64,000 nucleotides of DNA, from the NCBI RefSeq assembly GCF_032854445.1, contig NC_088305.1, positions 30,900,628-30,964,627 on the forward strand, written 5' to 3'. The notes under the pieces are model-generated. The model was not told the DNA's origin. It was given only the letters and a program-made list of their open reading frames with translations, and ran no database searches. The position numbers and the translations under genes are program-made. Positions 19,925-61,900 of this stretch are shown here, one piece after another; position 1 is the first letter of the stretch; the number at the start of each line of letters is the position of its first letter. The stretch comes from Liolophura sinensis (taxonomy: Eukaryota > Mollusca > Polyplacophora > Chitonida > Chitonidae).

Positions 19925-22900
19925 CTGAAAGGTTATAGAACAATACATAAAAAATCTCTTCAGTTCACACCATTTAAAAACAAAAACAAATAGTTGTGAT
20001 ATGTCACCAAGAGTTCATGTCATGTAGTGAATGGATAATGTTAATAAGTTGACAACCTGAATGACAGGCAAGCATGTAGCTTCTTGATGCTGCCAAAAAC
20101 ATGTGACCTGCTGAACATCATGCCTGCAGAATCCACAGTTTTCATATATCAGAAAAAATGCCTTTGATGTGTCACCTGTTTTAATTTAATTTACCTGATT
20201 GGTGTTTAATTAATGGATTTACAAGAATATTTCACATATATGACAGCGGCCAGCCTTATGGTGGAGGAAAACGCACAACTAACGGCAGGTTGTTGCCAGA
20301 CCTTCCCACTTGTGGCCGGAGAGAAAGCCAGCATGAATTGGAGCTGCACTGGTGAGAGGCTCCTGGGTCATTACGTTACACTAGCACGCTAACCAATTGA
20401 GCCACTTAGGCCCCGTCACCCGTTTTAAGCAGTGAACATTAAACCACATGTATAGAAATGAGAGTACATGTAGGCAGGCAAAACAAGGTCATGAGTTCAC
20501 TGACAGGAAGTTACTCAGATTCTACGGATAACGCGTTTATTTATTCTGTACAACATCTAGACAGAAATGTGGCTTGTAAAAAATAAATGAAGTTGTTATA
20601 CAATTGAATCTACAGTAGGTCCTTGTTCATCATGTTCACTTGTAAATACCACCCAGCAGGCGTTAAGGTGCCAGTTTTACCAACATGCTCACTTGTAAAT
20701 GCCACCCCAGCAGGCGTTAAGGGGCCAGTTTTACCATCATGTTCACTCGTAAACGCCACCCCAGCAGGCATAAAGATGCCAGTTTTACCATCATGTTCAC
20801 TCGTAAATGCCACCCCAGCAGGCGTAAAGATGCCAGTTTTACCATCATGTTCACTCGTAAACGCCACCCCAGCAGGCATAAAGATGCCAGTTTTACCATC
20901 ATGCTCACTTGTAAATGCCACCCCAGCAGGCGTAAAGATGCCAGTTTTACCATCATGTTCACTCGTAAATGCCACCCCAGCAGGCGTAAAGACGCCAGTT
21001 TTACCATCATGTTCACTCGTAAATGCCACCCAGCAGGCGTTAGGGTGATAGTTTTACCATCATGTTCACTTGTAAATGCCCGCCCCCCCCCCACCAGCAG
21101 GCGTAAAGATGCCAGTTTTACCATCATGTTCACTCGTAAACGACACCCCAGCGGGGTTAAGGGGCCAGTTTTACCATCATGTTCACTCGTAAACGCCACC
21201 CCAGCAGGCGTTAAGGGGCCAGTTTTACCATCATGTTCACCTGTAAATGCCACCCCAGCAGGCGTGAAGATGCCAGTTTTACCTGAGAGATGAGCCTGAA
21301 GTCGTGGCTAACCAGCACCATGCCCCCTTCAAAGTCATTCATGGCCTCCGCTAATGCATCAATAGTCTCGATGTCCAAGTGATTTGTAGGTTCGTCAAAG
21401 AGTAGCAGATGAGGGTTTTGCCAGGCGATGTAAGCGAAGATGACTCGACACCTCTGGCCATCAGACAGGTTCTTCATGGGGCAGATCTGACAACAGACAA
21501 CAACACTTACAACAGTCAAGAACAGGAGAACAGAGACGAGAGAGATCACAACCGCGACAAGAACAGTGACAACAGAGATCAACACTGCGACAAGAACAGT
21601 GACAAGAGAGATCACAGCCGTGACATGAACAGTGACAAGAGAGATCACAACCGCGACAAGAACAGTGACAAGAGAGATCACCACTGCGACAAGAACAGTG
21701 ACAACAGAGATAACAACAGCTACTTCACACTTGGTATTTTACTCAGCAGTATTATAACTTATCTATGGGATTATCCAAGGGTGTTATTTGACAGTGGTTT
21801 TATTTGACAGAGGGCTGTGCAATGCTCAAAATTATCTGATTTCATATACACAATGGTGATTAGGTCTATGGGTGGATGAAACCATGAAACACTTTGCGGT
21901 AACCACTGGATGAAACCGTGCAGAATTGTGTGGCAACCAATCTATAAAACCATGCAGAACTTTGTGGTAATCACTGGATGAAACCATGCAAAACTTTGTG
22001 GTAACCAATGGAGAAAACAATGTAAAACTTTGCAATAACCACTGGATGAAACCGTGCAAAACATTGTGGTAACCACCAGACGAAACCGTGCAAAACTTAG
22101 TGGTAACCACTGGATGAAACTGTGCAGAACCCATGGAGGAAACCATGTAGAACTTAAGTAGCCACTAGAGGAAACCATGCAATAGACAGTGGAAAGAATG
22201 GAGGAAACTGCGCAGAATGCAGAGGAAACCATGCAAAACCGATGGAGGAAACCATGCAAAACCCAGTGATAACCAATGAAGGAAATCATGCAGAACTCAT
22301 GATCATGAGGAAACAGTGCAATATTTAATATACATATACACAACTTCTATCAGTACAACTGCAGTTTCATCACTTCAGAAACAGTTTTAGTAATATAACT
22401 TGCTGTGAACTAGAGGTGTTAGAGGACCCTGGTGAGGGTATTCCTCTGCCCACACCAAACTGTGCCCCACGTACTTGTTGTTGCCCTGTCAAGCCGTACA
22501 TCCCGACCATACGCCTCATCTCCTCCTTCTCCTTCACCTCTGGGTAGCATTTCTGTAGCCAATCAACAGCACTCAGCTCCAGGTCAAGAAGTTCTGACAG
22601 ATGCTGAAAGCAAAGAAGACCCATAAATGTATCATGCCAAATTACAGAACAACTCCAGGGTTTCCGCCCGAAAATAAATTTGAGTCCATTCGAGGCTGAG
22701 GTTTGGTAGTGGGGGGGATATTCTCTCTTTTGAGCCTTTTGGTAAGGTGTCATTCACAAAAAAGCTTTTTGTTTTTGTTTTTTTTTTTTCACTTTTTTGT
22801 ATGTCGGAGGGGAAATTTTGAGAAGCTTTTCCGGGGAAATGGGTCTGTTTACCGAACGCAAAACGGGCCTAGCAGAAACCCTGAACTCCATTTACATTCA

Positions 22901-25900: not shown

Positions 25901-28900
25901 TATTCTACAGTGTAAATCAAATAGATAAATAAATAAACTTTTAAAGACTGTAACACCATCCAGTAAACAAGTCAGCATGGAATTTAGTTCTTCATCCATT
26001 TGTTTGTGTTCACTACCGTAATATTTCACAAATGCAATGACAGTAAACCACCAACCTTTGGCAAGCAAATGAACAACTTTTCCCTTGCAGGACATGGAAT
26101 TTCATCAGCATACCAAGCTCAGTATGTATGCTATACTGGTATGTGATCACTGAAGAACCTGTTTTAAGATCCCCAAAGACACTTGCCTTGTCTGAAGTGA
26201 CTTTCTCTGTTAGTCCCCCATCCACCATTTTCTTCAACGTCTTCTCCTTACTCTGGGCCTGGCGAGCCAGCTTTGCACTACCATGTCCAAACCGGGCAAT
26301 GTAGTTCTGTACATAAACACAATCAAAACATGTTAGCTTAAATGCTCTTTTTAATTTCTCCCTTAATACAATGATTGTTTACAATGAATTTAATGAAAAA
26401 AAAAAATTTCTGAAAATAATCAATAAGAATACTGGATATAATCAATAAGAAAACTGGATATAATCAATAAGAAAACTGGATACAATCAATAAGAAAACTG
26501 GATACAATAGAAAACTGGATACAATCAATAAGAAAACTGGATACAATCAATAAGAAAACTGGATATAATCAACAAGAAAACTGAATACAATCAAAATGAA
26601 TACTGATTTTGTTACTAATACAAAGAAGCTGGGCTTGATAACATGCACCTTCACTGACCAAGCGCCTGACAGCTGCCAAAAAACAAACAGTGCACTTTTG
26701 TCTTCAGAGCCAGTGATGGGCCCCACTCTTGTTTAACACACTGAACTGAGAGTTTATCATGCTGTGGCTGACTGAAGAGTGAACATCATGTGAAAAGTTA
26801 CCTTCATGTGACTGATCTGATCTTGTTCCCAGCGAAACCTCTTCATCTGATTTTCTTCCAGTTCCATTCTTGTTTGAACGTATGCGTCATAGTTACCCTG
26901 AAACACAACCATCAATCAAAATGAAAAGGTGCATCCTCACTGACATTACTAGGTGCATCCACACTGACATTACTAGGTGCATCCACACCCACATTACTAG
27001 GTGCATCCACACCCACATTACTAGGTGCATCCACACTGACATTACCAGGTGCATCCACACCCACATTACTAGGTGCATCCACACCGACATTACTACGTGC
27101 ATACACACCCACATTACTAGGTGCATACACACCCACATTACTAGGTGCATCCACACCCACATTACTAGGTGCATCCACACCCACATTACTAGGCACATAC
27201 ACCCACATTACTAGGCACATACACACCCACATTACTAGGCACATCCACACCCACACTACTAGGCACATCCACACCCACATTACTAGGTGCATCCACACCC
27301 ACATTACTAGGTGCATACACACCCACATTACTAGGTGCATCCACACCCACATTACTAGGCACATACACACCCACATTACTAGCCACATCCACACCAACAT
27401 TAGTAGAACAATAAAAAATAAAATTATAAAGTACTTAACACTGCGGTGATGTAAGCATGGGGCCAGTTGGTTTGAAGTGTGTTTAAAAGTTCAGCCAGCC
27501 TTCAATCTTAATACCTGTCTTGATCTCATACACAGCTATTTAAGTCCAGACTAAATTTGATACCAGACTTAATTTCTAATACACCTTCAAACATCTGGGC
27601 TCAAGACTTCATAATGAAGGAGCATGTTACGAACGAAGATTGTTCAAAGAGCAAAACAAAAATCCCATTTGTGACTAATGTTTATAGCTTTCCATGCTGG
27701 AGGTTGTGGGGTTTTGCACGGGCAATAGTGAGACGTAGGCACTGTTCAATGACTAATTACTGAAGTCAGTCTTGAAATTCGCTTCAAGGGTTTTGAGCAC
27801 TGTACAGAGCATCAACCATTAACTAGAATGGGAGCATCTGCACTCTACCTCGGCCTTTTAGGTCATCACTCTTCAGCTGTTTGTAAAAAATATCTGTACA
27901 CAGCGCATATGTTCTTTCAACTCATTATGACAAGAGAAAACGTTTCACTCAAAACTCAACTTGTTGGCAGAATACTTGATTTACAATCAGAATAATCGTT
28001 TATCAACAGAATAATGATTTACGATCAGAATAATGGTTTATGAGCAGTGTTTTATTTCTGTCCCAAATTTATATTAGTTCTTTTTCACAGTCCTAGTCAG
28101 GGGCACATTTTACAAAGCCGTCGCAAAGGTGCATGAAGGGTATTTCCTCTTTTCTAAATGTTCTCATGGAAACTATGTACACACTTTTGACAAATATGTT
28201 ACAATGGAGGTTGCGCCAGGTGCATTTTGCATCTGGTTCGTATAACGGTTCGGGCTCTTGAACAATCACCTGGAGCAATACCACAGCATTGTTCAAAGAG
28301 CAACAGACAAACCATAGTTGTGACTTATGGTTCTGGTTTTCGATGGTAGCTTCTGTGGGTTTTGGGTGGCCGTCTTGAAAAAACTTTCCTCATGTTTTGG
28401 GATGTTGGAAATTAAAGTTCTCACAGTCAGTGTAAAGGACACATTCGTTGTAACGGACATATTCGTTGTAAAGGAAATATTCGTGCATGTATAACTAACA
28501 ATATAAAATGTATGTTGACCAGGGTAAGTTGAGTGAGTGCTTGAGGTTTATTGCCATACTCAACAATTTTTCAGTCATATGACGACAAAGGAATCCTTAG
28601 CATGCCTCCTTATTGCAAGATGGATTTCCACCACTCTTTTATCTAGCGCTGCTTCACTGAGACGCCCTACCGAAGTCAAGTAAGCTGCCCCTCACGAGCC
28701 ATTATACTAATATGGGTCAACCAGTCGGTGCACTATCCCCTTCATGCTGAACGTCAAGTGAGGAAGTTACAACTTCCTCTTTTACAGTCTTAGGTGTTAG
28801 TTCAGGATTGACCCTGGATCTACCGCTCCTGAAGTGGATGCTCTACCAACGTGCCATCGGGGCCCAGTAACTCACAAATGAAAAAAAAAGTGTAAACAAT

Positions 28901-31900
28901 TTTGTATAAATGCTTAACAAAACATAGAATAGACTGTTATATGTTAAAAGCACCATAATGTAGGAGGACAACAAAGTAGAGCACTGATTTTGATTGATAT
29001 GCTGTCCTCCTCCTTGGAGATGGCGTCTTCATTATGCAATTAAAATCGAAAAAAAAAAAAAAAAAAAAAATTTGGGAAAAGCCAGCTACAGGTATGTGAA
29101 ATATCTGAGTCCTATAGCTACAGGTATGTGAAATATCTGAGTCCTATAGCTACAGGTATGTGAAATATCTGAGTCTTATTTCCACACAGGTTATACGATG
29201 AAGCCTAATGACGCTTGTCTCCGACGCTTTAATAAAGTTACATGCAGCAGAAAGCAGACTTACACCATAGTACTTGAGTTTCTTCAGATTCATGTGGATA
29301 ATGGTGTTACAGACACCGTTGAGGAAATCCTGCGAGTGGGATATTACCACCAATATCCGCTTGTACCTGAGGACAAAGGAGAACCAAATCACAATGTGAC
29401 ATCACAACCAATATTCCCTTGTACCCGAGGGCAAAGGAGAGACAAGCCACAATGTGATATCACAACCAACATTCCCTTGTACCCGAGGGCAAAGGAGAGA
29501 CAAGCCACAATGTGATATCACAACCAATATTCCCTTGTACCCGAGGACAAAGGAGAGACAAGTGACAATGTGATATCGCTACCAATATTCGCTGTACCTG
29601 AGGACAAAGGGGTGATAAGCCACAATGTGATATCACCATCAACTGGGACAATTCACAGTGAGTTATCCTCACCAAGACAGACTTGTACATGTATACAAAG
29701 GGGAGACAATTCACATGATATTGCCATAGATTCACTTGTATCTGTGCATCGACAAGCACTAAATTAGTTCCATGTTACTTATTACCCCGTCCTTCCAAAA
29801 AACCCGGACGCTCAAAGCTAACTCACCAGATATACTTCTACTGGAGGTCACAGAACACAGTGCCAATAGGGTTGATGTTTTTTTTTAACCTGACATATTT
29901 GTATAAATGTGAACTGTTTTTAAGTTATAAATTAAGGAGAGTACTTACTCCTTCAGCTCTTGCTCTAACCAGACACAAGCGTTCAAATCTAAATGATTCG
30001 TGGGTTCATCCAATAGCAGCAGTGCTGGTTTTATGTACAAAGCTCTGGCTAGAGATATTCTCATCCTCCAACCTCCTGAAAAGTCTGAAAAATTCAAGAT
30101 CAATCTTAATCTTTAACTGCTTTGAAAATAAAAAAAAAACAAAAATTGCCCAGTGAAAATAGGACAAGCTATACCTCTACTTTATTCCAATATGTGCTTC
30201 AATAAAACATGGTCACAGAGGTGTCCCCCAGATTTTTCAACAAGTGGTTGATGCACATAACTGCACAGACTTTCTAAAGTGTTAGTAAAGAAACCCTTCA
30301 GATTTTTTAGTACCTTCTTTGCACTCAGATGTTACTGTATAATTATCCAATGAAAGATGTTACTATGGCAATCTGCCTCCCTACATCCATCGTCACACTG
30401 TCTTCTCTAATATTTCTGCACGTCACAGGCTATCAGTGGCTATCACACTTCATACATGATGCACCACTTACAATACAACTGGCTGATTTACCCTCCACTC
30501 TTCCCTCCCACACAAACCCCTGCCAATAACAGTGATCTAATGAAATAGAGGTGTACTTCCTACAAGTGTCAGTTTGCATGACGCTTAAGGTCTGCTAGGA
30601 AACTCTTTGTCTATTGGTGACAAAATATTTGCATGATTAGAATCAATTCTACATGAGCTATGCTGCAACAGGGATAATTTTCCTCAGACAAACACGTTTC
30701 CTAAACAATTTCGCTGTGTCCCATTGTATTAACCATTTCTTTTTTTTTATGCCTTTGGGGATAGGGTTAGTAGTCCGCCCAACCACGGTCAACACAAGCA
30801 GATGCCAACTCACCTTTAACCTTTTTGTACTGCATTTCCTTAGTGAATCCCAAACCCCAGAGGATTTCAGCCGCACGGGCCTCAGCTGTTGATGCATCCA
30901 TTTCGTCCAATCGCTCGTAGACATCCATCAGTCTATCGTGAGATTCTAGGGTTTAGGAAACAAGCCAGGATAAATTCTCAAATACATGTGGATCAATTCA
31001 CATAAACAAAAAAAAAAAAAATCTTTATACATGATCTTTCAATGCAGATTAAAACTTGAAAACCGTAATTCCACTACTGCTTCATGCATATCATTTTATT
31101 TATTTCATTGGTGTTAAAGGGACACTACCAGCAGGACATGTACACTTTTTCTGAGGACTGTCAGGTTTGATGGGAGGAAAACCACCAACCTTTGGCAAGC
31201 AACTGACAAACTGTCCCACCTACATAATGAGCTCACCTGCCCTCTGGACACCCTAACAATAACACTAAAACACTTTGATGTATACAGATTCACAGTTGCT
31301 TCCATAGTACATGAACATTAACAACACTACTTCCATTTCTTGCATACATGTGAATGTTAACACACACACAACTATGAGAGGTAGGTGTGGTTTATTTGAC
31401 AAATGACTGAAGTCAGTTTTGAATTTCGCTTCAAGGTTTTCGAGCACCGAACAGAGCATCGACCATTAACTAGAATGGGTGCACCTGCACTCTACCTCGG
31501 CCTTTTAGGTCATCACTCTTCAGCTGTGTGTAAATCTGCGTACTCTTTACGACAGGGAAAAATGATCCACTCAAAATTTGACTTCTTATTCTCAACACTC
31601 TATTGATTTCTATACAGTGCCATGTCTGTACCAAATCTACGAGTGGTTCTCTTTAACAGTAGCAATCAGGTTTTTGGTAAGAGAAAATTTCCCAGAATCT
31701 GGAGGAAACTACAGTACATTCCCAGGGGCCATTTTTTTTTACAAAGCTACCCCAAAGGTGCATAAACAGCATTCCCCATGGTGACATGTCTCTTCACTTT
31801 ATGGAAACTAAATGCGCACTTATGACGAACACGTTGCAGTTGAGGTTAGTTCAGGTGAATTTCGTGCCTGGTTCCTATAACAGTTTCAGGTTCTTCAATC

Positions 31901-55900: not shown

Positions 55901-58900
55901 ACTTGACCGATAATACATACAAGCAAGAATGGCAAGATATGAGCTTGCGGTTTATAATTACCAGGTATGGCCATGGACATGCGCACTGCCACTGCCACAG
56001 GCATGTCGGGAGTAGTCTTCACATGACAGTACGTCGTGGACATCTGGTTCAGATTTGTCACTGCCACGCAGAGTTCTTTACCAAATTCTTGGTATAACTA
56101 AATACGCAAAAAAAAAAACAAACAAAAAAACAACAACTGGTAAACGCGATGTTCTAACTATACTCTATCTACGTCGTATTATGTCGTTGTATAATACAAA
56201 GTATAGACCACGTTATTGCTGCCATCGCATTGCCGGAAAACTGTGTTAAATCAATAACCTTAGCCGGTCGAGTTGATGATATTCAAGAACGAAGAAAGAT
56301 TTACCGTGAACTGAGATAGCTGAACCTAGTGATGCAAGGTTACCGCATACCCCAAACCCTAACAGCATAATGATAAAAGTTTGTATGATACTGACTGACG
56401 GTGATGATTGATATTAACTGATGATTGATATTAACTGATGTTAACTGATGATTGATATTAACTGATGATTGATATTAACTGATGATGATAGTGGTGGTTG
56501 TGATACTAACTGAGTTAGCATGATGGCAGCTAAAGAAAACTAGAACATTTAGATAAATAACACCAACCAAATATATTTTACATAATCCTTAGAGCAAGAT
56601 AGGTATATGTGGTATGCCTTTTACGGTCTTACAATGTAACCAACGGTGAGCGGTTTGAACGAAAAATAGTTTACTTCTCTGAAGGTGATATCCCTGTTTT
56701 GAGTAGCTTCGTGCATCCTGTCACCGAACCAGCGAAACACTCTCTTTCCAGGATTCCACCCATACGTCAAGAGTAAGTTAGGGAGAAGACTGAGGTAACC
56801 ACAGCTGTGATCTGTGGACAGAAACGATCCGTGGATGAGTATCAGATAAAGTAAGTTAGGGAGAAGACCGAGGTAACCACAGCTGTGATCTATGGACAGA
56901 AACGATCCGTGAATCAGTAGCAGCTAGAGTAAGTTAGAAAGAAGACCGAGGTAGCCACAGCTGTGATCTGTGGACAGAAACAATCCGTGGATGGGTATTA
57001 CCTAGAGTAAGTTAGGGAGAAGACTGAGGTAACCACAGCTGTGATCTTTGGACAGAAACAATCCGTGGATGGGTATTACCTAGAGTAAGTTAGGGAGAAG
57101 ACTGAGGTAACCACAGCTGTGATCTGTGGACAGAAACGATCCGTGGATCAGTATCAGATAGAATAAGTTAGGGAGAAGACTGAGGTAACCACAGCTGTGA
57201 TCTATGGACAGAAACGATCCGTGAATCAGTAGCAGCTAGAGTAAGTTAGAAAGAAGACCGAGGTAGCCACAGCTGTGATCCGTGGACAGAAACGATCCGT
57301 GGATGAGTATCAGATAGAGTAAGTTAGAAAGAAGACCGAGGTAGCCACAGCTGTGAGCTATGGACAGAAACGATCCGTGGATGAGTATCAGATAAAGTAA
57401 GTTAGGGAGAAGACCGAGGTAGCCACAGCTGTGATCTATGGACAGAAACGATCCGTGAATCAGTAGCAGCTAGAGTAAGTTAGAAAGAAGACCGAGGTAG
57501 CCACAGCTGTGATCTATGGACAGAAACGATCCGTGGATGAGTATCAGATAAAGTAAGTTAGGGAGAAGACCGAGGTAGCCACAGCTGTGATCTATGGACA
57601 GAAACGATCCGTGGATGAGTATCAGATAAAGTAAGTTAGAAAGAAGACCGAGGTAGCCACAGCTGTGATCTATGGACAGAAACGATCCGTGGATGAGTAT
57701 CAGATAAAGTAAGTTAGGGAGAAGACTGAGGTAGCCACTGCTGTGATCTATGGACAGAAACGATCCGTGAATCAGTAGCAGCTAGAGTAAGTTAGAAAGA
57801 AGACCGAGGTAGCCACAGCTGTGATTTATGGACAGAAACGATCCGTGGATGAGTATCAGATAAAGTAAGTTAGGGAGAAGACCGAGGTAGACACGGCTGT
57901 GATATGTGAACAGAAACGATCCGTGGATGGGTATCACCAAGAGTAAGTTAGGGAGAAGACTGCGGTAACCACAGCTGTGATCTGTGGACAGAAACGATCC
58001 GTGGATCAGTATCAGATAAAGTAAGTTAGGGAGAAGACTGAGGTAACCACAGCTGTGATCTATGGACTGAAACGATCCGTGGATCAGTATCAGATAAAGT
58101 AAGTTAGGGAGAAGACTGAAGTAACAGCTGTGATCTGTGGACAGAAACGATCTGTGGATGGGTATCACCAAGAGTAAGTTAGGGAGAAGACTGAAGTAAC
58201 AGCTGTGATCTTTGAACAGAAACGATCCGTGGATGGGAATCACCAAGAGTAAGTTAGGGAGAAGACTGCGGTAACCACATCTGTGATATGTGGACAGAAA
58301 CAATCCGTGGATGGGTATTACCTAGAGTAAGTTAGGGAGAAGACTGAAGTAACAGCCGTGATATGTGAACAGAAACAATCCGTGGATGGGTATCACCAAG
58401 AGTAAGTTAGGGAGAAGACTGAAGTAACAGCTGTGATCTGTGGACAGAAACGATCTGTGGATGGGTATTACCTAGAGTAAGTTAGGGAGAAGACTGAAGT
58501 AACAGCCGTGATATGTGGACAGAAACGATCCGTGGATGAGTATCAGATAGAATAAGTTAGGGAGAAGACTGAAGTAACAGCTGTGATCTGTGGACAGAAA
58601 CAATCCGTGGATGGGTATTACCTAGAGTAAGTTAGGAAGAAGACTGAAGTAACAGCTGTGATCTGTGGACAGAAACGATCCGTGGATCAGTATCAGATAG
58701 AATAAGTTAGGGAGAAGACTGAGGTAACCACAGCCGTGATATGTGAACAGAAACGATCCGTGGATGAGTATCAGATAAAGTAAGTTAGGGAGAAGACCGA
58801 GGTAGCCACAGCTGTGATCTGTGAACAGAAACGATCCGTGGATGAGTATCAGATAAAGTAAGTTAGGGAGAAGACTGAGGTAACCACAGCTGTGGTCTAT

Positions 58901-61900
58901 GGACAGAAACGATCCGTGAATCAGTAGCAGCTAGAGTAAGTTAGAAAGAAGACCGAGGTAGCCACAGCTGTGATCTATGGACAGAAACGATCCGTGGATG
59001 AGTATCAGATAAAGTAAGTTAGGGAGAAGACTGAGGTAGACACGGCTGTGATATGTGAACAGAAACGATCCGTGGATGGGTATCACCAAGAGTAAGTTAG
59101 GGAGAAGACTGCGGTAACCACAGCTGTGATCTGTGGACAGAAACAATCCGTGGATGGGTATCACCAAGAGTAAGTTAGGGAGAAGACTGAAGTAACAGCT
59201 GTGATCTGTGAACAGAAACGATCCGTGGATGGGAATCACCAAGAATAAGTTAGGGAGACGACTTCGGTAACCACATCTGTGATATGTGGACAGAAACGAT
59301 CCGTGGATCGGTATTACCTAGAGTAAGTTAGGAAGAAGACTGAGGTAACCACAGCTGTGACCTGTGAACAGAAACGATCCGTGGATCAGTAGCAGCTAGA
59401 GTAAGTTAGGGAGAAGACTGAAGTAACAGCTGTGATCTGTGGACAGAAACGATCTGTGGATGGGTATTACCTAGAGTAAGTTAGGGAGAAGACTGAAGTA
59501 ACAGCCGTGATATGTGAACAGAAACGATCCGTGGATGAGTATCAGATAGAATAAGTTAGGGAGAAGACTGAGGTAACCACGGCTGTGATTTGTGGACAGA
59601 AACGATCCTTGGATGAGTATCAGATAGAATAAGTTAGGGAGAAGACTGAGGTAACCACGGCTGTGATTTGTGGACAGAAACGATCCGTGGATCAGTATCA
59701 GATAGAATAAGTTAGGGAGAAGACTGAGGTAACCACAGCTGTGATCTGTGAACAGAAACGATCCGTGGATCAGTAGCAGCTAGAGTAAGTTAGGGCGAAG
59801 ACTGAGGTAACCACAGCTGTGATCTATGGACAGAAACGATCCGTGGATGAGTATCAGATAAAGCAAGTTAGGGAGAAGACTGAGGTAACCACAGCTGTGA
59901 TCTGTGAACAAAAACGATCCGTGGATCAGTAGCAGCTAGAGTAAGTTAGGGAGAAAACTGAAGTAACAGCTGTGATCTGTGAACAAAAACGATCCGTGGA
60001 TGGGTATTACCTAGAGTAAGTTAGGAAGACGACTGAAGTAACAGCCGTGATATGTGGACAGAAACAATCCGTGGATGGGTATCACCAAAAGTAAGTTAGG
60101 AAGAAGACTGAAGTAACAGCCGTGATATGTGAACAGAAACAATCCGTGGATGGGTATCACCAAGAGTAAGTTAGGAAGAAGACTGAAGTAACAGCCGGGA
60201 TATGTGAACAGAAACAATCCGTGAATGGGCATCACCAAGAGTAAGTTAGGAAGAAGACTGAAGTAACAGCCGTGATATGTGAACAGAAACAATCCGTGGA
60301 TGGGTATCACCAAGAGTAAGTTAGGAAGAAGACTGAAGTAACAGCCGTAATATGTGAACAGAAACAATCCGTGGATGGGTATCACCAAGAGTAAGTTAGG
60401 AAGAAGACTGAAGTAACAGCTGTGATCTGTGGACAGAGACGATCTGTGGATGGGTATTACCTAGACTAAGTTAGGGAGAAGACTGAAGTAACAGCTGTGA
60501 TATGTGAACAGAAACGATCGGTGGATGAGTATCAGATAGAATAAGTTAGGGAGAAGACTGAGGTAACCACAGCTGTGATCTGTGGACAGAAACCATCCGT
60601 GAATCAGTATCAGATAAAGTAAGTTAGGGAGAAGACCGAGGTAGCCACAGCTGTGATCTGTGAACAGAAACGATCCGTAGATCAGTATCAGATAGAGTAA
60701 GTTAGGGAGAAGACTGAAGTAACAGCTGTGATCTGTGGACTGAAACGATCCTTGGATGAGTATCAGTTAGAGATAGAGAGAAGACTGAACATTGTGGTAG
60801 TCTCAGTGGGAGGGCTTCGAGTGAGGGGGGGGGGGGGGGGCGCAATGGGCTATGGGGCGTCCTTACCTAGGAATATCCTCCTCATATCCATGCCGACAAA
60901 CTCCCTGATGTCGTCTGGCGTGTACCCTACAGCCAGCAAGGCGGCCGTCATGGCTCCAGCAGAGGTTCCGGCAAAACGCTTGATTTGGCTTAGCATGCCT
61001 ATCTCCTCCATTTCCTGAAAACGGACATTATACGTTAATTAAATATATCAGATTATGAGTTATCTTACCCGGGCAAAGAAACTTCCTGAGTTCAGTAAGG
61101 TTTTCGTCTCCGAAAGTCCGTTTTCCGACATGGCAAAAAGTTGGTCAAACTCAAAAAAACATATGGCAAATATAAATTCATATTCCCTACTCAGTTTACT
61201 GAAGCCTCGCACATTGCAACACACGGCTGTTGGACCTGTATGACAAGTGAATATGAAAATGAAAATGAGGAAAACTAACCGGTCTGAATAACGCTGCATG
61301 TAATCCGTCATTTTGTCGTCGAAACACCAAAATATTCGTTCCTTAAAAACACACAAAACTATGAACACTGTTTACATTGTGGATTAAAATGTATACCTCA
61401 TTCCGAACTACACCTTATTAACATAACTGACAAATGACGAGCCGCAAGGCATATTAATTATAACTACTATAGTTTATTAAAGGAGGCTTATCAGTGCCAT
61501 ACAGATTCAGCTGGATTCTTCTTTTCCTACAAATAGTATACTTGCTGTTGTGGTTTATGAGCTGAGTTTGTAAATCTCTTTTTTTTTCCAGAAAAAATGT
61601 TTTACCTAAAAATATTGCTTTCACAAAGAAAATGATTTTTTTTCACGAAGGAAATTAAAGTTTCGCTGTGGTATGTCTATTGCATGGAATTTACTTGCGT
61701 AGCCTAATCACACTGTACTTTCTATTTATGTCATTATTTGATTGGTGCATGTTTTACGCCGTAAAATATTTCACTTTTACGGCTGCGGCCAGCATTTTAT
61801 ATGATGAGAGGAAAGCTAACAAACCCACGACCATCCGCGTTTTGCTGGCACGTACGACTGGAGAGGAAGCCAGCATGAGCTCACAGCGACCACATTTGTG

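Follow-up and report, generated by a model that had tools for sequence, protein, structure and literature searches.

Intron 2 of a patatin phospholipase gene in the chiton Liolophura sinensis is occupied almost throughout by a minisatellite whose units span the junction between that intron and exon 3. We analyzed a window of 64,000 nucleotides (assembly GCF_032854445.1, contig NC_088305.1, positions 30,900,628 to 30,964,627; coordinates below are those of the window unless a contig is named), in which the array lies on the minus strand. The best reading is that it is of a known kind, found here in a new phylum and at an extreme copy number. An earlier, sequence-only reading of this stretch had claimed that no standard element class behaves in this way, which was wrong, since "mirage" minisatellites have been reported in amphioxus. 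We put the probability at roughly 90% that the patatin array is such a mirage, in which a junction was duplicated without harm, the duplication expanded, and the acceptor closest to the exon is the one used.

Anatomy of the patatin array

Exons 1 to 3 of the gene, once joined, matched the Patatin family (PF01734) with an E value of 1.5e-16, which agreed with the earlier description of a phospholipase gene whose exons 2 and 3 are intact. Exon 2 ended at 60867 in phase 1, and intron 2 measured 4055 nt. The frame after exon 2 was continued by the first AG alone, with exon 3 starting at 56811 (...RRIFLDHSCGYLSLLPNLLLTYGWNPGKRVF; slashes in the motifs below mark splice junctions). A second AG seven bases further on (ATCACAG/CTG) shifted the frame and was rejected as the real acceptor.

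Tandem Repeats Finder called a period of 78 and 52.1 copies at 56770-60772. Segmentation of the minus strand over 56768-60745 gave 52 adjoining units of minisatellite size, 32 of them 78 bp and 19 of them 75 bp long, plus the final unit 52; the sequence-only reading had given about 51 tandem copies. Each unit runs from a pyrimidine tract and AG (TTTCTGTCCACAG) through 44 nt resembling the start of exon 3 (41 nt in the 75-bp units) to 21 nt that precede the next acceptor. Within this 21-nt segment many units hold a branch-point-like CTGATAC, a motif that we spotted by eye. A 78-bp unit consequently joins about 34 nt from the 3' end of intron 2, acceptor included, to the initial 44 nt of exon 3, so that the unit crosses the exon-intron boundary. 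The outermost, exon-proximal unit 52 is the genuine junction itself (TTTCTGTCCACAG/ATCACAGCTGTGG), and repeat identity ends at 56768, 44 nt inside exon 3.

The claim that every unit carries the end of intron 2, an AG junction and about 44 nt of exon 3 held for the junction anatomy and for the 44 nt; the AG was kept in just 34 of the 52 units. The description of a large field of duplicated acceptors, while right about the anatomy of the unit, was overstated for the 18 copies that have lost it. That almost no ordinary intron is left was confirmed, with 77 nt between the exon 2 donor and the array. When a 76-base unit was used to search the 609-Mb genome, at least 52 matches were returned, all at the patatin intron 2 locus on a single contig (C11); these counts are lower bounds, as very common words may be skipped.

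Table 1. Positions of the patatin array and its flanking exons, and of two junction arrays in an ABCF2-like gene of the same window.
Feature	Position	Strand	Basis
Patatin exon 2, 148 nt, with GTSAG; ends ...CCTAG/GTAAGG, phase 1	60867..61014	-	PF01734 match of joined exons
Donor GT of intron 2	60865..60866	-	sequence
Remainder of intron 2 not occupied by the array, 77 nt, with C-tract	60790..60866	-	sequence
Degenerate partial unit that closes the array distally	60746..60789	-	read by eye
Units 1-51, each 75 or 78 bp: decoys with 44 nt of exon 3 plus copied branch region, polypyrimidine tract and acceptor	56825..60745	-	Tandem Repeats Finder and segmentation
True acceptor TTTCTGTCCACAG, with which unit 52 begins in the intron	56812..56824	-	sole acceptor giving frame DHSCGYLSLLPNLLLTYGWNPG without insert
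Start of exon 3 (44 nt): the segment that was copied, and the exonic portion of unit 52	56768..56811	-	unit alignment
Patatin exon 3, 137 nt	56675..56811	-	frame continuity with exon 2
ABCF2-like gene, mirage at an acceptor, 5.1 copies of 58 bp, covering the first 27 nt of the exon that starts at 29366 (YKRILVVI...)	29340..29636	-	Tandem Repeats Finder; exon homologous to yeast ARB1
ABCF2-like gene, donor-side array, 54 bp x 12, starts at last exon base (CTCTCAG/GTAAAACTGG) and repeats GTAAAACTGG; practically no exon	20628..21283	-	Tandem Repeats Finder

State of the inner copies and probable origin of the array

The inner copies look like non-coding, decaying decoys that are apparently neutral. 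While the in-frame acceptor AG was retained in the 34 units mentioned above, the AG of the second site was present in 43 of 52. Variability was much the same in the exonic and intronic parts, the conservation of alignment columns across units being 0.925 and 0.908, and the 23 distinct exonic variants (17 nonsynonymous, 5 synonymous and 1 stop) fit a neutral expectation of 70, 26 and 4%. Among the 34 AG-bearing acceptors, units 51 and 52 were the only two from which the frame stayed open through exon 3; entry at acceptor 51 would lengthen the protein in frame by 26 residues. We therefore rejected a protein-coding tandem repeat, in which the frame would be open through the units.

Mean pairwise identity of the units was 87.7%, and the 51 inner units comprised 48 distinct sequences, with three identical pairs. 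A block of six units, 22-27, recurred 15 units further on as units 37-42 with 3.0 differences per unit, a match equaled in 2 of 500 shuffles. This block duplication points to concerted turnover within the array.

In amphioxus, mirages are described in Adh3 and in the globins BflGb6 and BflGb9 (PMC3087553), as well as in troponin C (TnC) and PGBD5, the latter added and the former cited by a second report (PMC3902484). These two papers present them as minisatellite-like tandem duplications that take in an intron-exon boundary and may lie at the start or at the end of the exon, with splice signals in many of the inner copies and normal splicing reportedly undisturbed. The patatin array shares the tandemly duplicated boundary and the splice signals of the inner copies. 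It differs in having 52 units, in the one haplotype represented, compared with the 6 and 3 units given for two haplotypes of BflGb6 (PMC3087553), and it fills nearly the whole intron, unlike the amphioxus mirages; several independent cases also occurred in the chiton genes that we sampled. The host is a mollusc, in whose genome we found eight matches in a row to the molluscan haemocyanin domain, whereas mirages have so far been reported from cephalochordates, a difference of host range and not of structural definition. Amphioxus was considered as the host and rejected; besides the haemocyanin matches, a Pfam GFP search and a query with a fluorescent protein of lancelet origin were negative, both searches lacking a control known to give a match. 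A literature search, judged mainly on titles and the openings of abstracts and with subscription journals mostly outside it, found no report of a mirage in a mollusc; a paper on Plasmodiophora dealt with a mitochondrial region, and the word "minisatellite" was absent from a chiton genome comparison (PMC12005716).

Human genes of segmental duplications likewise have minisatellite units at their exon-intron boundaries, internal tandem repeats that reportedly alter gene structure (PMC2812944). Those repeats average 30 bp and 4 units and are tied to novel introns, whereas the patatin array, with its 52 units, carries no sign of a new intron.

From the anatomy of the units we infer the following order of events. 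A short tandem duplication across the intron 2/exon 3 junction, taking in about 34 nt of intron and 44 nt of exon, would have come first, and it would have been harmless because the exon-proximal copy still reads as intron end, acceptor and complete exon. Unequal exchange or slippage would then have expanded and rearranged the array to 52 units, lengthening intron 2 from what may have been roughly 0.1 kb to 4.06 kb. Exon 2 would be spliced to the acceptor nearest the exon, 56811, which is followed by all of exon 3 and by the donor of that exon. This predicted acceptor is most probably the one that the spliceosome uses, and it may be selected by the entire exon 3 together with that donor. Like anatomy was found in other genes with an exon recognized by a family model or by a solved relative, namely the ABCF2-like, dynein, myosin and kinesin genes.

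Three observations weigh against this account. A single clean duplication would not be expected to leave the left edge of the array starting in exon-phase sequence, as it does. On a simple generic score, 18 of the 34 AG-bearing acceptors, unit 52 included, scored at least as high as unit 52; sequence strength alone would hence be insufficient to select the right acceptor, and with 17 others equal to or better than the true one, decoys can be tolerated only if the choice of the exon-proximal site is robust. Finally, variation in the inner exonic copies was 0.09, 0.032 and 0.108 at the first, second and third codon positions. With the second lowest and the third highest, this is the order expected from coding constraint; 1,183 of 20,000 column shuffles reached the same third-minus-second difference, which is not significant.

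Junction arrays elsewhere in the genome

The patatin array is not an isolated case: we met 14 junction arrays in the genome, the window included, and the patatin array is apparently one of a fair number. In the window, the ABCF2-like gene, three joined exons of which matched yeast ARB1 with an E value of 1.3e-28, carries an array at an acceptor and another at a donor (Table 1). Elsewhere, the clearest cases were in kinesin genes, with a donor array of 73 bp x 21.6 that reaches 54 nt into the exon and an acceptor array of 64 bp x 11.8 that reaches 23 nt into it, and in a dynein gene, where 20 copies of a 31-bp unit at a donor extend 29 nt into the exon. Three further donor-side cases (L030, L063 and L035, the last of which merely touches the donor) were recognized by eye, outside the called set. 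Two of the 14, L035 and the array at 20628-21283 of the window, contain practically no exon. Arrays that lay near exons and off the junction (L047, L061 and one kinesin region on contig C1) were not counted as mirages, nor was a dynein array 28 bp before an acceptor.

Such an array might have been born at a splice-junction hotspot instead of being an ordinary intronic minisatellite placed there by chance, an explanation that is compatible with the mirage reading and that we hold only tentatively, with doubt the stronger side. The sample was drawn from the whole genome and consisted of the top-scoring matches to exons of three families, with the junctions returned by a generic caller; it is small. 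Dynein (PF12774) gave 90 matches at 30 loci and myosin (PF00063) 81 matches at 28 loci, and 112 of these 171 matches, in 37 merged regions totaling 145,975 bp, made up a first set, which includes a region (L066) that had been fetched because a mirage was suspected in it. Out of 29 arrays, 5 contained one of the 191 called junctions, against an expectation of 1.62 over 2,000 random placements (P 0.024). Leaving L066 out weakened the result, with 4 of 29 arrays on 189 junctions and 1.57 expected (P 0.062). Kinesin (PF00225) served as a replication under the same rules: 132 matches were found at 20 loci and 30 were used, four that span introns being left out, and in these 61,711 bp, with 48 junctions, 3 of 16 arrays contained a junction, 0.81 being expected (P 0.032). 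Over the combined 207,686 bp, 8 of the 45 arrays contained a junction, which involved 8 of the 239 junctions, where 2.4 arrays were expected (Poisson P 0.0036), or 7 arrays against 2.39 without L066 (P 0.011).

A test independent of the arrays, made on the dynein and myosin set only, pointed the other way. We scored a 30-mer as duplicated if at least two further near-copies lay within 1.5 kb. At the junctions this was true of 6 of 191, fewer than deep in the intron: the counts were 7 of 190 at 30 nt into the intron, 10 of 190 at 60 nt, 12 of 189 at 90 nt, and 15 of 188 at each of 120, 180 and 240 nt. Inside exons they were 1 of 191 at both 30 and 60 nt, 2 at 90 nt and 3 at 120 nt, where probes at the last two distances can leave a short exon. 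As intronic 30-mers were duplicated more often than junction ones, mirages may be just the fringe of a general abundance of minisatellites in the introns of this genome. Arrays made up 12.4% of the sampled sequence (25,662 of 207,686 bp), and minisatellites 19.5% of the window, 9.3% of the dynein and myosin sample and 19.5% of the kinesin sample, the filter used for the window being slightly different. Many of the minisatellites in the window lie inside introns of the patatin and ABCF2-like genes, each with a unit of its own.

The ends of arrays near exon edges were clustered: with L066 included, 8 lay 7-54 nt inside the exon, none in the first 13 nt of the intron, and 6 at 14-34 nt into it. 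Selection may simply explain this, because an end within the splice signal would harm that signal, while an array across the junction would keep one undamaged copy next to the exon. A true junction hotspot is possible, although less likely than not.

The patatin array extends a phenomenon known from amphioxus genes to a second phylum, and the first count suggests that it is frequent enough for study. It could be, although we would not wager on it, that splice junctions are preferred birthplaces of minisatellites in the chiton, with decoy arrays at a few percent of junctions and a spliceosome that picks the exon-proximal acceptor from among up to fifty. If so, mirages would be the outcome of a convergent mutation process in animals, linked to transcription or splicing, and not an oddity of amphioxus. 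Some 50 near-identical acceptor regions in one intron amount to a natural experiment in decoy avoidance by the spliceosome, and such arrays are raw material for the expansion of introns and perhaps for their gain. Loci of this kind probably mislead gene predictors and short-read assemblers.

Several other arrays carried splice-like units. In the ABCF2-like gene, intron arrays at 26418-26605 and 21527-21717 have units with acceptor-like stretches (GTATCCAG; CTTGTCGCAG), and each precedes a real acceptor, by about 110 and 40 bp respectively. The unit of a dynein array (L019 2481-3105; G000 C6:21543884-21544508) consists of pyrimidines, CAG and GTAAGT, with about 20 diverged copies in a row; recursive splice sites have this form too. 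In a kinesin intron (the L070 region, G000 C9:4628200-4629381), about 44 copies of a 27-bp unit are almost nothing but polypyrimidine tract and acceptor (TCTCTCTCTGTTGTCAG/GTATTTT).

Use, intron gain and assembly as alternatives

The patatin array might be in use, its inner acceptors and donor-like sites feeding alternative splicing with 26-residue inserts or regulation through nonsense transcripts. The AG kept at 34 acceptors, unit lengths of 75 and 78 that are multiples of three, the in-frame product of acceptor 51, donor-like CTAG/GTAATA sites in nine units and the non-significant hint of codon-position bias would all fit. Nevertheless, every inner acceptor except 51 runs into stops, the donor-like sites score at most 2.0 compared with 5.7 for the real exon 2 donor, and the exonic variants are in neutral proportions, and we consider use of the array very improbable.

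Intron 2 could instead be a de novo gain, arising when an exonic AGGT segment was duplicated in tandem, an idea that PMC3087553 cites and proposes for the amphioxus mirages. Such a gain would likewise begin with a tandem duplication that includes splice signals, and both splice sites would derive from the duplicated segment. In the patatin gene, the donor (60866) lies outside the array together with 77 nt of unique intron, and no unit holds a strong donor, the best again reaching 2.0 against 5.7. The intron is therefore apparently older than the array and probably predates it, and we rejected this origin as very unlikely.

Tandem arrays are a classical site of assembly error, and a few units might have been inflated by the assembler, particularly at a coverage of only 14X. 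According to the part of its description available (PMC11068029), the Liolophura japonica assembly (632 scaffolds, 609.5 Mb) was built from PacBio HiFi reads with a mean length of 8,347 bp, long enough to span the 4.0-kb array. The inner units are, moreover, nearly all distinct in sequence (48 of 51), and other arrays are present in the same build; an artefact is highly unlikely.

A dispersed element was rejected: introner elements are repeats associated with introns, whereas the patatin unit showed no dispersal, the 52 matches found being at one locus. Elsewhere in the window, a dispersed repeat that is perhaps an element like a short interspersed nuclear element occurs at 33.5-34.0, 37.6-38.0, 41.4-41.6, 49.9-50.2 and 50.7-50.9 kb (translations such as LIGVLRRTQEYFTYTTTATIMVGG).

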